Below, piece after piece: positions 19,707 through 47,346 of a stretch of 64,000 nt of DNA; the stretch's first letter is position 1, and every line of letters starts with the position of its first letter. The notes beneath the pieces are model-generated. The model searched no databases, was not told where the DNA came from, and worked only from the letters and a program-made list of their open reading frames with translations. The DNA comes from Shinella lacus (lineage in GTDB: Bacteria; Pseudomonadota; Alphaproteobacteria; Rhizobiales; Rhizobiaceae), in contig NZ_WHSB02000004.1 of the NCBI RefSeq assembly GCF_010994755.1, positions 310,001-374,000 on the forward strand, in the 5' to 3' direction. Both the position numbers and the translations under genes were made by a program.

Positions 19707-21566
19707 CTACCCGGCAAATTCCTCGATGACGGCCAGAAAGGCATCACCGAACCGGTCGCGCTTGGAAACACCGATGCCGGGGATGTCCAGAAGTTCCTCC
19801 CGGTCACGCGGCCGCTCCTTGGCGAGCGCGATCAGCGTCGTATCCGGGAACACGACATAGGGCGGTACGTCGAGGTCCTTGGCGATGGCGAGGCGCTCGG
19901 CGCGCAGCAGCTCGAAAAGCTCGCGTTCCGAGCCGGCAAGGTTGGAGCGCTCGCGGGCGGCGGGCGAGTTTCCGGCCTTGCCCTTGCGGCCCGCCTGCGG
20001 CCGGTCCTTGCGGAAAAACACCTCCCGCTCGCGGCGGAAGACGGCGCGCGCCTCCTCCTCCAGCTTCAGCGCACCGAAGGCGGCATGATCGACGCTGATC
20101 AGGCCGGACGCCAGCAACTGCCGGAAGATCGACTGCCAGATGCGCGGCGCGATGTCCTTGCCCGCACCGAAGACCGGCATTTCGGTATGGCCGAAGCGCT
20201 CCGTCTTCTCGTTAACCGACCCCATCAGCACGTCGATGACATGCGCCGCGCCAAAACGCTCGCCGGTGCGGTAGACCGCGGCAAGCGCCTTGATGGCGGC
20301 CTCGGTACCATCCCAGGTCTCGACCGGGTTGCGGCAGGTATCGCAATTGTCGCACTGGTCGGCATGCGATTCGCCGAAATGCGCCAGGATCGCCTTGCGC
20401 CTGCAACCGGACGTTTCGCAGATGGCGAGCAGCGCCATCAGCTTGGCGCGCTCGATGCGTTTGATCTCGTCGGCCGCATTGCCCTCGTCGATCATCCTGC
20501 GGCGCTGCACGACGTCGGCCATGCCATAGGCCATCCAGGCATCCGACGGCAGGCCGTCACGCCCGGCGCGCCCCGTCTCCTGGTAATAGGCCTCCACCGA
20601 ACCCGGCAGGTCGAGATGGGCGACATAGCGCACATCCGGCTTGTCGATGCCCATGCCGAAGGCGACGGTCGCGACAAGGCAGAGGTTTTCCTCCTTCAGG
20701 AAGGCATCCTGGTTGGCATCGCGCACGGCACGGTCGAAGCCCGCATGATAGGGCAGCGCGCGAACACCCTGCGTGTTCAGCCATTCGGCCGTGTCCTCGA
20801 CCTTGGCGCGCGACAGGCAGTAGACGATGCCGCTCTCGCCCTGGTGGCGTCCGAGGAAACGCAACAACTGCTGACGCGCCTGGTCGCGCTCGGCGATCTC
20901 GTAGGAAATGTTCGGCCGGTCGAAGCTGGTGGTGAAAACCTCGGCATCCTGCAAGCCGAGCCGCTCGATGATATCGCCGCGGGTATGCGGGTCGGCGGTC
21001 GCCGTCAGCGCGATGCGCGGCACGCCGGGGTATCGCTCGCCGAGCATGCCGAGCGTGCGGTATTCCGGCCGGAAATCGTGCCCCCATTGCGACACGCAAT
21101 GCGCCTCGTCGATGGCGAAGAGCGCGATGCGGGCATCGGCCACCAGCTCGGCGAACCCCTCCGTGACGATGCGCTCCGGTGTGACGTAGAGCAGGTCGAG
21201 CGTGCCCGCGCGCATCGAATCGCGCACAGCAAAGAACTCGTCACGTGTCAGCGAGGAATTGAGCGCCGCCGCGCTGACGCCAAGCTGCTTCAATGCCTCC
21301 ACCTGGTCGCGCATCAGCGCAATCAGTGGAGAGATGACGATGCCGACACCCTCGCGGCAGAGCGCCGGGATCTGGAAGCACAGCGATTTGCCCGCGCCCG
21401 TCGGAAACAGCACGACCGCATCGCCCCCCGCGGCCACATGCTCCACAACCGCCTGCTGCTTGCCGCGGAAGGCGTCGTAGCCGTAGACGCGCTTCAACAC
21501 GTCGAGCGGCGCCGACGGCGCGTCGAACAGCGCGGAGAGAGAACGGGACGGTTTGGTCTGGGTCAT
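19707..21566 (-). CDS. recQ: ATP-dependent DNA helicase RecQ
   Basis: A 619-residue 3'-5' DNA helicase of recombination and fork repair. Motif I '[12 protein letters not shown]', DEAH box '[13 protein letters not shown]', motif VI '[10 protein letters not shown]', the zinc subdomain ('[17 protein letters not shown]' and 'CDNCDTC'), a winged-helix region and a C-terminal HRDC domain ending '[10 protein letters not shown]' are all present, so it is full length. The ATG at 21566 is preceded by GGAGGAAGG and starts 'MTQTKPS'. An exact GTTC-N7-GTTC site 86-100 bases upstream (21652-21666) suggests LexA control. Confidence 0.98.
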
Positions 21567-21651
21567 CAATGGCACCTTCCTCCTTTCATTCTGGCCAAGT
21601 GCACCACCATGGGCAACCGCCCGACCGCCAGCTTTTGCCTTCACACACAAT

Positions 21652-21666
21652 GTTCTTGATTTGTTC
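21652..21666. promoter_or_regulatory. Putative LexA (SOS) box upstream of recQ
   Basis: GTTC-TTGATTT-GTTC, the direct-repeat LexA site of alphaproteobacteria, with an AT-rich spacer, located in the recQ/dnaG intergenic space and 86 bases upstream of the recQ ATG. Confidence 0.65.
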
Positions 21667-43633: not shown

Positions 43634-45091
43634 CTACCCCATCGTCTCCTTCAAATGCCCGACCATCAGCATGTCCTCGACGAACAGCGCGTGCTGGCGT
43701 TGGCGTTCGGCCTCATTCGGCAGGCGGAGCAGGTAGGACGGGTGGATGGTCGGGTATAGGACCATGTCGCCCTGCATGGCGATCGGTTTGCCGCGGACCT
43801 GATTGAGCGGCCTTTGTTCACCGCTCAGCGCATAGAGCGCGGTGGCGCCCATCGCCACGATCAGACGTGGCTTGACGAGTTCGACCTCCTTTGCCAGCCA
43901 CCAGCGGCAATGGTCGATTTCGCCGCGGTCCGGTTTCTGGTGGATGCGGCGTTTGCCGCGCGGCTCATATTTGAAATGTTTCACCGCATTGGTGAGATAG
44001 AGGGACGGCCGGGGGATGCCGGCCTCCTTCAGCACCGCGTCAAAAACCTTGCCCGCCGGGCCGACGAAGGGGCGGCCGGCGAGGTCTTCCTGGTCGCCCG
44101 GCTGCTCGCCGACCATCATCACGCTTGCATCCTGCGGCCCCTCGCCGAAAACGGTCTGCGTCGCTGTGCAATGTAGCGGGCAGCGCGTGCAGTGGCGCGC
44201 CTCCTCGCGCACCGCCTCGATCGTGCCGGCGCCGGCAGGCACGATCTGCGACAGGGGCTGCGCGGCCTCCTGGAGGCGATAGTGGAAGAGCGGCGGGTCG
44301 CTCGCGGCGCGCTCGGCCATGGCGCGCACATTCGCCTCGGCATTGGCGATCATCTCGGGAATGAGATCGGCTTCCGGCAGGTTGCGCCAGTATTTCTTCG
44401 GCATCTCGGCCTGCATGGCCTTCAGCTTCAGGCGGGCCGGATTGAAGATGCTTGCATAATAGGTGCGCCAGAGTTCATCGGTCGGGTCGCCATGGCCGGG
44501 ATTTTCGCCGGGGCGCGTGTCGAAGATCAGGGTCTCGCCATCCCAGCTTGCCGTGCCGTTCGGCGTCGCGATGATCCAGTCCATGTCGGCAAAGCGCCGG
44601 CGGAAGAACGGTGCGGTGCGCGCCACGACGAAATGCGACGGCTCGAACCAGGCAAAAAACCGTCGGCGCCCCGCCGTCTCGCCGGCAATCTCCTTGAAAC
44701 GCACGAAGGCCGTCATCTTGTGGCTGTCGCGATGGACGTTCTTGGCGAGAAGCCGCGCCCAGGCGACATCCTTGTCCGCCGTCAGTTCCAGCAGGCGGCG
44801 ATCCGATTGCAGGCGCCAGAGCAGCCGGTAGAGCATGTGAAACCGGCCGGGCTCCGTATGGCAGACGACAGCCTCGGCCAGGGGCAGGAAGGCCGGCGGC
44901 ACGGTGAGCGGCGGGGCGGCGGCATCCGGCTTCGGCAATTGCGGCGGCGCGACGGCATCGAAAAGCTCATGCTCCACCCCGCAAATGCGCCAGTCCGCCT
45001 CGCGCGGCGAAATGCCGGCGGCAGCGAGTGCGCGGGCGGCGTCGCGCCACTCGGAAAAATCGCCTCGTCCGACAAGAGGGATCGTGTGCAT
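43634..45091 (-). CDS. udgX: UdgX-type uracil-DNA glycosylase fused to a TIGR03915-like DNA-metabolism domain
   Basis: A 485-residue two-domain protein. Residues 1 to ~240 match the radical-SAM-associated 'putative DNA metabolism' domain ('HTEPGRFHMLYRLLWRLQSD', 'VHRDSHKMTAFVRFKEI', 'FAWFEPSHFVVARTAPFF'). The C-terminal ~200 residues are a family 4-like uracil-DNA glycosylase with FeS cysteines ('CTRCPLHC'), motif A 'GEQPGDQED' from residue 328 and motif B 'HPSYLLR' near 450. The UdgX-specific loop K-R-R-I-H at 380-384 contains the His that, in mycobacterial UdgX, bonds covalently to the uracil site. The start overlaps the radical-SAM stop by one base (TGATG). Confidence 0.93.
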   Translation of the reverse strand: MHTIPLVGRGDFSEWRDAARALAAAGISPREADWRICGVEHELFDAVAPPQLPKPDAAAPPLTVPPAFLPLAEAVVCHTEPGRFHMLYRLLWRLQSDRRLLELTADKDVAWARLLAKNVHRDSHKMTAFVRFKEIAGETAGRRRFFAWFEPSHFVVARTAPFFRRRFADMDWIIATPNGTASWDGETLIFDTRPGENPGHGDPTDELWRTYYASIFNPARLKLKAMQAEMPKKYWRNLPEADLIPEMIANAEANVRAMAERAASDPPLFHYRLQEAAQPLSQIVPAGAGTIEAVREEARHCTRCPLHCTATQTVFGEGPQDASVMMVGEQPGDQEDLAGRPFVGPAGKVFDAVLKEAGIPRPSLYLTNAVKHFKYEPRGKRRIHQKPDRGEIDHCRWWLAKEVELVKPRLIVAMGATALYALSGEQRPLNQVRGKPIAMQGDMVLYPTIHPSYLLRLPNEAERQRQHALFVEDMLMVGHLKETMG

Positions 45092-46320
45092 CAGAGCAAC
45101 GAAAGCTGTTCCGGTTTGCGCGCAAAAAGCGTCTTCAGGTCGGCGCGATCGGCCAGCCGCCGCGGCGTCCAACCCTCCGCCTCGATGAAGGCGCGCACCT
45201 TGCGCAGCGACACGCCGAGCCGCGCCAGATCCTCCAGCCGCAGGCGGCGGAAGCGGCGGCTGGAGAGGATGGCATCCACCGTCTTCGTGCCGAGGCCCGG
45301 CACGCGCAGCAGCCGTTCGCGCTCCGCCCGGTTGACGTTCATCGGAAAGGCGTCGCGGTTGGCAAGCGCCCAGGCAAGCTTGGGGTCCATGTCGAGATCC
45401 AGCATGCCGCCGGTCCCGGAGGTGATCTCGTCCACGCCGAACCCATAGAAGCGGTAGAGCCAGTCTGCCTGGTAGAGCCGGTGCTCGCGCACCAGAGGCG
45501 GCTTGATCAGCGGCAGCGCGCGCGACGCATCGGGAATGGGGCTGAAGGCGGAATAATAGACGCGCTTCAGGCCGTAGCTGCCGTAAAGCCGGGCACTCGT
45601 CTTCAGGATCGTCGCATCGTCCGCGCCATCGGCGCCGACGATCATCTGCGTGCTCTGGCCACCCGGCACGAAGCGCTTGCGCCGCTTGGTCTGGAGAGTG
45701 GGATCGTCCGCCGCCTCAATCTTGCGGCGCAGGTCACCCATCGCGCGGCGAATGCCGTCCGGTCGCTTTTCCGGCGCAAACCGGCCTATGCCGGCATCCG
45801 TCGGTAGCTCGATGTTGAGCGAGAGGCGATCGGCATAAAGCCCCGCCTCCTCGATCAGCTCCGGTGCGGCGTCGGGAATGGACTTGAGATGGATATAGCC
45901 GCGAAAGCCGTGCACGGTGCGCAGTTCACGCGCCACCCGCACCATCTCGCCCATCGTATGATCCGGCGAGCGGATGATGCCGGAGGAAAGGAAAAGCCCC
46001 TCGATATAGTTGCGCCGGTAGAATTCCAGCGTCAGCCAGACCACCTCCTCCGGCGTGAAGCGGGCGCGCTCGACATTGCTGGAGGAGCGGTTGATGCAAT
46101 AGGCGCAATCGAAGATGCAGAAATTGGTGAGCAGGATCTTCAAGAGCGAGATGCAGCGCCCGTCCGGCGCATAGGCATGGCAGATCCCCGCCCCTTCCGT
46201 CGAGCCCAGCCCGCCCGACGCAACGGAGTCGCGCTTGACCGTTCCGCTGGAAGCGCACGAGGCATCGTATTTGGCGGCATCGGATAGGATGGCCAAGCGT
46301 TGTTGCAGCGATTTCTTCAT
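45091..46320 (-). CDS. Radical SAM protein, putative DNA modification/repair (TIGR03916-like)
   Basis: A 409-residue radical SAM enzyme. The cluster motif C-I-F-D-C-A-Y-C has Cys68, Cys72 and Cys75 (CxxxCxxC) binding a 4Fe-4S cluster; 'SSGIIRSPDHTMGEMVRVAREL' and 'LSLNIELPTDAG' continue the barrel. A helix-hairpin-helix, 'LLRVPGLGTKTVDAILSSRR' (about 336-355), suggests DNA contact. It is always paired with the next gene's N-terminal domain in this family. The ATG at 46320 has no ribosome binding site and lies 5 bases from an SOS box, so the mRNA may be nearly leaderless. Reaction unknown. Confidence 0.93.
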   Translation of the reverse strand: MKKSLQQRLAILSDAAKYDASCASSGTVKRDSVASGGLGSTEGAGICHAYAPDGRCISLLKILLTNFCIFDCAYCINRSSSNVERARFTPEEVVWLTLEFYRRNYIEGLFLSSGIIRSPDHTMGEMVRVARELRTVHGFRGYIHLKSIPDAAPELIEEAGLYADRLSLNIELPTDAGIGRFAPEKRPDGIRRAMGDLRRKIEAADDPTLQTKRRKRFVPGGQSTQMIVGADGADDATILKTSARLYGSYGLKRVYYSAFSPIPDASRALPLIKPPLVREHRLYQADWLYRFYGFGVDEITSGTGGMLDLDMDPKLAWALANRDAFPMNVNRAERERLLRVPGLGTKTVDAILSSRRFRRLRLEDLARLGVSLRKVRAFIEAEGWTPRRLADRADLKTLFARKPEQLSLL

Positions 46321-46324
46321 ATTT

Positions 46325-46339
46325 GTTCACTATATGTTC
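46325..46339. promoter_or_regulatory. Putative LexA (SOS) box of the radical-SAM/udgX operon
   Basis: GTTC-ACTATAT-GTTC (GAAC-ATATAGT-GAAC on the coding strand), an exact alphaproteobacterial LexA site with an AT-rich spacer, 5 bases upstream of the operon's first ATG and overlapping the likely -10 region. Confidence 0.8.
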
Positions 46340-46380
46340 TAGAGAGCGCAGTCAATGAAAAAGCGGTTGGCATCGGCGGC

Positions 46381-47346
46381 TCAATAGCCGCCGATGATGG
46401 GAAGGACTTCGCCGGTGATATAGCTGGAGCATTGCGGCGAGGCGAGGAAGACATAGGCGGGCGCCAGCTCCTCTGGCTGGGCGGGGCGCTTCATCGGCGT
46501 GTCGGCGCCAAATTTGGCGACGTCTTCCGCCTCCTTGTCCGAGGGGTTGAGCGGCGTCCAGACCGGGCCGGGCGCCACCGCATTGACGCGGATGCCGCGC
46601 GGCACGAGCTGGCTTGCCAGCGAGCGCGTAAAGGCATGGATGCCGCCCTTGGTCATCGAATAGTCGAGCAGGGCCTTGGAGCCTTCGAGGCCGGTCACAG
46701 AGCCGGTGTTGATGATGGCGGAACCCGCCTCCATGTGCGGCACCGCCGCCTGCGCCATGAAGAAATAGCCATAGAGATTGGTCTTCAGCGTCTCGTCGAA
46801 ATGCTCTTCCGAGAGGTCCAGAATATCCTTGGCATGGACCTGGAAGGCGGCGTTGTTGACGAGAACGTCGAGCCGGCCAAGCTCCTTCACCGTGCGTTTG
46901 ACCGCAATGCGGCAAAAAACCTTGTCCTTAACGTCGCCGGAAAGCGCGATGCAGCGCCGACCCTCCGCCTCGACGGCGGCGATCGTGTCCTTCGCGTCGC
47001 CGCCTTCGGCAAGATGGGCGATCGCCACGTCCGCACCCTCGCGGGCGAAGAGCACGGCGACGGCCCGGCCGATGCCGGAATCGCCGCCGGTGATGAGCGC
47101 CACCTTGCCCTTCAGCTTTTCCGAGCCCTTATAGAAGGGCGCGTCATACATCGGTGCAGGATCGAGCTTGGCCTCATTGCCGGGTTTCGGCTGGTGCTGC
47201 TCGGGAAAGGGCGGCACGGGATAGAGGCGCGCGCCGGCCTGCATGGCCTTCGCCTTGTCCTCCCCGGCTTTGCGGTCGGCCGCCGCCACCTCGTCCTGAA
47301 TGTCACGCTGTTTGGCCGCCGTGCGGGCGGATTGGCTGCGGGTCAT
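46381..47346 (-). CDS. SDR-family oxidoreductase, YghA-like
   Basis: A 321-residue short-chain dehydrogenase with an N-terminal extension ('YPVPPFPEQHQPKPGNEAKL') typical of the YghA/glucose-dehydrogenase-like general-stress group. Cofactor turn 'ALITGGDSGIGRAVAVLFAREG', 'NNAAFQ', catalytic Ser in 'NTGSVTGLEGS' and Tyr/Lys in 'YSMTKGGIHAF' are present. GAGGAGG precedes the ATG at 47346. It follows a CsbD-like stress gene by 10 bases on the same strand, supporting a stress-response operon. Substrate unknown. Confidence 0.92.
   Translation of the reverse strand: MTRSQSARTAAKQRDIQDEVAAADRKAGEDKAKAMQAGARLYPVPPFPEQHQPKPGNEAKLDPAPMYDAPFYKGSEKLKGKVALITGGDSGIGRAVAVLFAREGADVAIAHLAEGGDAKDTIAAVEAEGRRCIALSGDVKDKVFCRIAVKRTVKELGRLDVLVNNAAFQVHAKDILDLSEEHFDETLKTNLYGYFFMAQAAVPHMEAGSAIINTGSVTGLEGSKALLDYSMTKGGIHAFTRSLASQLVPRGIRVNAVAPGPVWTPLNPSDKEAEDVAKFGADTPMKRPAQPEELAPAYVFLASPQCSSYITGEVLPIIGGY

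Follow-up and report, generated by a model that had tools for sequence, protein, structure and literature searches.

Does the direct repeat at the head of a radical-SAM operon in Shinella lacus place this operon under LexA, and thus in the SOS response, and if so, which of its parts is the object of that control? The window analyzed here, a 64-kb stretch of 64,000 nucleotides (contig NZ_WHSB02000004.1, positions 310,001 to 374,000), encodes on its minus strand a radical S-adenosylmethionine (SAM) protein (45091–46320) and a partner protein (43634–45091) in which DUF4130 is fused to UdgX, a uracil-DNA glycosylase (UDG). A preliminary description of the window had proposed that an exact LexA box makes a radical-SAM and UdgX pair part of the SOS response. 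The conserved box makes SOS control of the operon very likely; the make-up of the pair calls for correction, since what stands under SOS control appears to be radical SAM together with DUF4130, UdgX being an optional fusion, and this composition of the core is new.

The box occupies positions 46325–46339. On the plus strand these read GTTCACTATATGTTC, an exact GTTC-ACTATAT-GTTC; on the minus strand the predicted LexA operator is GAACATATAGTGAAC (GTTC-N7-GTTC on the plus strand), a call made from the motif scan and from orthologue conservation. The preliminary description had noted an AT-rich spacer and a short intergenic gap, and both are seen: A or T stands at six of the seven spacer positions, and 60 bp lie between the radical-SAM start and the stop codon (46381–46383) of the upstream short-chain dehydrogenase/reductase (SDR) gene. 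It had also placed the box 5 bases upstream of the ATG. The box is indeed exact, with a gap to the ATG (46320–46318) of four bases (46321–46324); five is reached only by counting to the first base of the box. The radical-SAM start must be 46320, because an in-frame TGA (46329–46327) sits within the box.

Taken alone, the motif carries little weight, because its counts exceed chance barely. The window contains seven exact copies of GTTC-N7-GTTC where 1.70 would be expected, a count that no shuffle out of 100 reached, and the 7.04-Mb genome holds 168 exact matches versus 97 for the reversed pattern. Position and conservation carry more. Among the first 80 orthologues, 78 have GAAC-N7-GAAC no more than 45 nt upstream, and two (L026 and L027) carry GAAC-N7-GAAT instead. 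The set was enlarged with loci drawn from the class and the phylum; of the 137 distinct upstream regions from Alphaproteobacteria that resulted, with that of the window among them, 133 have the box in either orientation. Without the window and one non-orthologue, 132 of 135 orthologues are boxed between −100 and +15, as compared with 8 of 6914 same-length background tiles taken from elsewhere in the same loci, and this rules out a chance origin of the box. The three misses are L026, L027 and L082. No box is expected at L082, nor at the likewise box-less L111, because their genomes (G198, 92% complete, and G351, respectively) match the LexA model by its C-terminal half alone.

Orthologues from other lineages carry other LexA-type motifs. 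The 28 loci from Pseudomonadota outside the window's class (L139–L166), taken as beta- and gammaproteobacteria, have CTGT-N8-(A/C)CAG where the alphaproteobacterial box would stand in 24 cases, versus 4 of 1133 background tiles. None of the 28 has the alphaproteobacterial box, and none of the 135 alphaproteobacterial loci has CTGT-N8-(A/C)CAG (the looser CTG-N10-CAG occurs in one). Three of seven loci from Clostridia or faecal sources (L181, L229 and L232) contain exact copies of GAAC-N4-GTTC no farther than 250 nt away, at five sites, over a background of one such site in 53.6 kb across 11 loci; L182 and L231, both of clostridial type, have one-mismatch sites only. The assignment of motif types to groups beyond Alphaproteobacteria and Bacteroidetes is our assumption. 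The search of orthologous operons for a conserved box that the preliminary description had advised therefore found it in Alphaproteobacteria, and a different LexA-type motif in most of the other proteobacteria. That most of these relatives carry their own lineage's LexA motif suggests that the unit belongs to emergency DNA repair, and control through several such motif variants points to damaged DNA as the place where it acts. In a tree built by a quick method, the CTGT-type loci fell into two groups, one of them beside the alphaproteobacterial loci; support was moderate and the tree was not relied on. As a separate observation, two exact Gram-positive-type LexA boxes in the Pusillibacter locus (L181, 2858–2986) precede a short annotated open reading frame (ORF) immediately adjoining the radical-SAM gene.

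The repeat might instead be a conserved promoter, or the operator of another repressor, that resembles a LexA box only by coincidence. In favor of this, the middle of the repeat reads as a −10 element, and LexA binding here is a prediction from sequence. Yet both GAAC half-sites are kept, including the bases beyond the −10; a different LexA-type motif stands at the same place in other proteobacteria, and a third type in the clostridial-type loci, with the counts given above; and exact boxes of this kind stand before lexA and several further genes of the Shinella genome. The one full LexA gene (G000:C13:547037-547747, 180.8 bits) has a box just upstream (546953–546967), and others lie in the gap between ssb and uvrA, before two genes for proteins resembling ImuA (58.1 and 56.6 bits, below the cut-off of 150), before three Y-family polymerase genes, two of which pass the cut-off of a DNA polymerase IV model, and before a DNA polymerase III alpha-like gene. 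We consider a coincidental likeness very improbable. The identity of one boxed gene as dnaE2 was rejected, the gene scoring as DNA polymerase III alpha. The first 14 box sites fetched were mostly picked for AT-rich spacers, and an exact box is not proof of SOS control, because several of these sites precede no recognized SOS-related gene. The window itself contains a second exact LexA-type box, GTTCTTGATTTGTTC (21652–21666), just upstream of recQ (19707–21650, minus strand; TIGR01389, 764.4 bits).

Several observations weigh against SOS control of the operon. The orthologues are related, so that the conservation counts are not independent. The recA promoter of Shinella has two one-mismatch sites and no exact box. 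The main texts of four papers on LexA or SOS in Alphaproteobacteria (PMC12700426, PMC6473078, PMC13384398 and PMC4211646) mention neither radical SAM nor uracil. Four non-alphaproteobacterial operons, L139 and L140–L142, are without the CTGT box. In the L139 genome LexA is divergent and scores below the cut-off, and a CTGT box stands at the promoter of its gene; in L140–L142, from one genus, lexA scores over the cut-off and has TTAGTAGTAATACTACTAA at its promoter, while the operon lacks TTAGTAGTAATACTACTAA. These four operons seem to stand outside the local SOS response, because the lexA promoters are boxed and the operons are not; a missing LexA as the cause of missing boxes, which fits L082 and L111, fails here, where LexA or a divergent relative is present. 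Two of the seven clostridial-type loci (L228 and L230) are without any box-like site, and four Bacteroidota loci (L179, L180, L233 and L234) gave no convincing match to the two published Bacteroidetes motifs: CTAA-N5-TTAG was absent at up to one mismatch, and GGA-N5-TCC occurred once, at a remote position (−211, L234).

Just upstream of the radical-SAM start, at the place of the LexA box, L140–L142 carry a palindrome, (G/A)TCTCAT-N3-ATGAGAC, possibly the site of another regulator. GTCTCAT-N3-ATGAGAC was rejected as a variant LexA site: with at most one mismatch allowed, each genome has it once or twice, and the lexA box differs from it.

The alphaproteobacterial box also appears to be part of a promoter. 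Among the 121 alphaproteobacterial loci whose box is oriented as in the window, a TTG precedes the box by 18, 17 or 16 nt in 36, 15 and 31 loci, respectively (82 of 121), every other offset being found in at most six. Box positions 6–11 read TATAGT in 34 loci, TATCAT in 13 and TAACAT in nine, giving −35/−10 pairs spaced by 17, 16 or 15 nt. Between the box and the first start codon in frame lie 2 nt in 52 loci and at most 7 nt in 109; in these 109 the codon is ATG in 105 cases, GTG in three and TTG in one. In the window, on the minus strand, the predicted −35 (TTGACT, 46350–46355) stands 15 nt before the predicted −10 (TATAGT, 46329–46334, within the box). In the commonest class of loci, transcription from a start 7 nt past the −10 would begin exactly with the start codon; in the window it would begin 2 nt before that codon, at about 46322, and from the −10 position we predict a leader of 0–5 nt (46318–46322 with the ATG, minus strand).

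A Shine-Dalgarno match of at least 4 nt precedes 10 of the 109 box-near starts; the share is 27% among 663 starts of other ORFs and 20% at random positions, the ORF control being crude (the first ATG or GTG of every ORF of at least 250 codons on both strands). None is visible by eye before the radical-SAM ATG in the window, in agreement with the preliminary description, whose suspicion of a near-leaderless mRNA also fits the predicted promoter geometry. A box that holds a −10-like element, abuts the start codon and follows a TTG at a fixed distance is new, and predicts a leaderless or nearly leaderless mRNA. Among the matches listed in a literature search whose coverage ended at subscription papers, no report of a leaderless promoter for this operon was found.

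SOS control may be real and the mRNA not leaderless, if transcription starts further upstream or reads through from the SDR gene (46381–47346), which lies on the same strand 60 bp upstream and is not part of the unit. A consensus promoter scanner, moreover, reports no sigma-70 site at the operon; its silence is explained by the spacer of 16–18 nt that it demands, as compared with 15 here. Leaderless geometry is not universal either, because one alphaproteobacterial lineage (L129–L132, L135, L136 and L167) has the box reversed, with in-frame starts 22–81 nt away. The fixed TTG distance, the closeness of start codon to box and the scarcity of Shine-Dalgarno sequences at box-near starts speak against a longer leader, which we regard as unlikely; the operon's transcript is probably leaderless. 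If so, it would tie damage induction to translation without need for a Shine-Dalgarno sequence. The same arrangement of TTGAC, box, 2 nt and ATG heads a 59-residue ORF in the same genome (L261, 1287–1466), which has no NCBIfam match; the small protein after it looks, on visual comparison, like one encoded close to a further boxed site (L259).

The radical-SAM protein (409 aa) scores 562.6 bits against TIGR03916 (cut-off 343.5), over the curated cut-off, and has a CX3CX2C motif; its nearest named relative is from Shinella kummerowiae (96% identity). In an alignment of 61 sequences the cluster cysteines C68, C72 and C75 are invariant, and C22, C47 and C56 are present in at least 90%. The C-terminal part weakly resembles the helix-hairpin-helix regions of ComEA (E 0.01) and RuvA (E 0.03), these being the best E-values, and this likeness gives a hint of DNA binding. 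The predicted model (predicted local distance difference test score 84; residues 22–47 of low confidence) resembles radical-SAM barrels of many kinds among the best 50 of 1175 structural matches, and spore photoproduct lyase is absent from those 50.

The ATG of the partner gene overlaps the radical-SAM stop codon. In the 485-residue partner, residues 8–241 match DUF4130 (TIGR03915, 203.1 bits) and residues 243–477 match UdgX (TIGR03914, 328.7 bits). For DUF4130 no convincing solved relative was found by sequence (best E 0.78). The UdgX part has GEQPGD, KRRIH and HPSYLLR, that is, all three UdgX motifs given in the accessible part of PMC10359453, motif B having Y instead of the S or A of that source. 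The partner profile matches Mycobacterium smegmatis UdgX with 235 bits, and the model of the UdgX part superposes on the solved UdgX structures listed with a root-mean-square deviation of 1.4–2.0 Å over about 190–200 columns. Domain and motifs are thus shared with the M. smegmatis protein, which the accessible part of PMC10359453 treats as a UDG on its own, whereas in the window UdgX is fused behind DUF4130, and the operon that encodes the fusion carries a LexA box.

Is UdgX, then, the reason for the control? On this account the response would target uracil in DNA, with radical SAM and DUF4130 only assisting. It gains from co-occurrence: in 398 Pseudomonadota genomes (TIGR03916 with E up to 1e-50, TIGR03915 with E up to 1e-10, UdgX over its cut-off), UdgX was found in 78, and 63 of these are among the 84 genomes with the radical-SAM family. 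The accessible part of PMC8565304 also reads the operon as uracil-based excision repair. TIGR03915, on the other hand, is present in 88 genomes, which include all 84 with TIGR03916. Furthermore, 38 retrieved proteobacterial operons have a partner of fewer than 400 aa, a length that fits DUF4130 with no UdgX part, and 34 of them still carry their lineage's box (18 of 21 alphaproteobacterial, 16 of 17 others); no UDG-like ORF was seen downstream of the short-partner operons, more than 2.5 kb of downstream sequence being available in only 15 of the 39 loci examined.

Loci in which the parts stand alone tell the same way. Seventeen udgX loci lie outside the operon. One of them, L212, was set aside because a DUF4130 remnant there contains a box-like match; none of the other 16 has a box within 1.4 kb upstream, and at L223 a box lies about 1.5 kb upstream. 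All three DUF4130 loci without nearby radical SAM (L225–L227) are boxed, roughly 145–205 nt upstream. LexA control therefore seems tied to DUF4130 and radical SAM rather than to UdgX, and we judge control on account of UdgX improbable. That DUF4130 loci are boxed and udgX loci are not also indicates which part merits study first. DUF4130 remnants beside udgX at L212 and at L209 (a short tail), in genomes without radical SAM, suggest that udgX can persist after the other parts of the operon are lost. At L170 the radical-SAM and DUF4130-UdgX genes are separated by a gene that, judged from the first residues it encodes, is deaminase-like.

With radical SAM plus DUF4130 as the controlled core, the following sequence of events can be proposed. 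LexA would bind the direct repeat at 46325–46339, cover the −10 of the operon and so block RNA polymerase. Upon DNA damage, active RecA would lead LexA to cleave itself, and transcription would begin at the ATG or a few bases before it. The resulting leaderless or nearly leaderless mRNA would yield the radical-SAM enzyme and, by translational coupling, the DUF4130-UdgX protein. Radical SAM and DUF4130, as the conserved core, would most likely form a lesion-processing pair acting on DNA; UdgX, where fused, may excise uracil and hold the abasic site covalently for this pair. We hold this explanation as a whole, with the operon as an SOS regulon member, its mechanism and its lesion-processing core, with good confidence. 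More tentatively, damaged DNA could be the substrate of radical chemistry by radical SAM with DUF4130, to which UdgX, as an add-on, would contribute the trapping of uracil sites.

Several features of this arrangement are compared here with earlier work. Two assumptions of ours enter the comparison, namely that COG4277 is the TIGR03916-type radical-SAM family and that the alphaproteobacterial report credited below, a Caulobacter paper, concerns this operon. The accessible part of PMC8565304 names a COG1573-COG4277 operon in SOS networks as a putative uracil-DNA-glycosylase base-excision system; it predicts SOS control in Bacteroidetes and calls it already reported in Verrucomicrobia and Alphaproteobacteria, citing a Verrucomicrobia paper and that Caulobacter paper. 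Going by the COG contents, these would be the same two genes in an operon under LexA, and SOS control of such an operon is supported as a finding reported before (PMC8565304). In Acinetobacter Tol 5, a gene with the same product name is upregulated on desiccation (PMC13130816). The leaderless promoter, the DUF4130 core and the operon-free udgX genes are features here that the accessible part of PMC8565304 does not discuss.

We lean, on balance, towards the fuller picture in which operator, −10 and start codon are fused within about 35 bp, a leaderless SOS gene is conserved across much of Alphaproteobacteria, the controlled unit is a radical-SAM/DUF4130 pair for damaged DNA with UdgX as a lineage add-on, and three LexA motif types serve it according to lineage. 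DUF4130 has been linked to radical SAM and UDGs in an SOS gene network and termed a "predicted mutagenesis-related enzyme" in the accessible part of PMC3765255. The radical SAM is called SplB-like there, whereas that of the window has TIGR03916 as its sole NCBIfam match, and spore photoproduct lyase is not among the matches listed; the SplB family is likewise absent from its NCBIfam and Pfam matches, whether these libraries hold a SplB model not having been checked.

No paper on UdgX together with radical SAM was found, subscription papers lying outside the coverage, and the viral contigs scanned held no relative of the unit. Caulobacter vibrioides has matches to all of TIGR03914, TIGR03915 and TIGR03916, and four UDG-family genes are listed for Caulobacter in the accessible part of PMC1839093.

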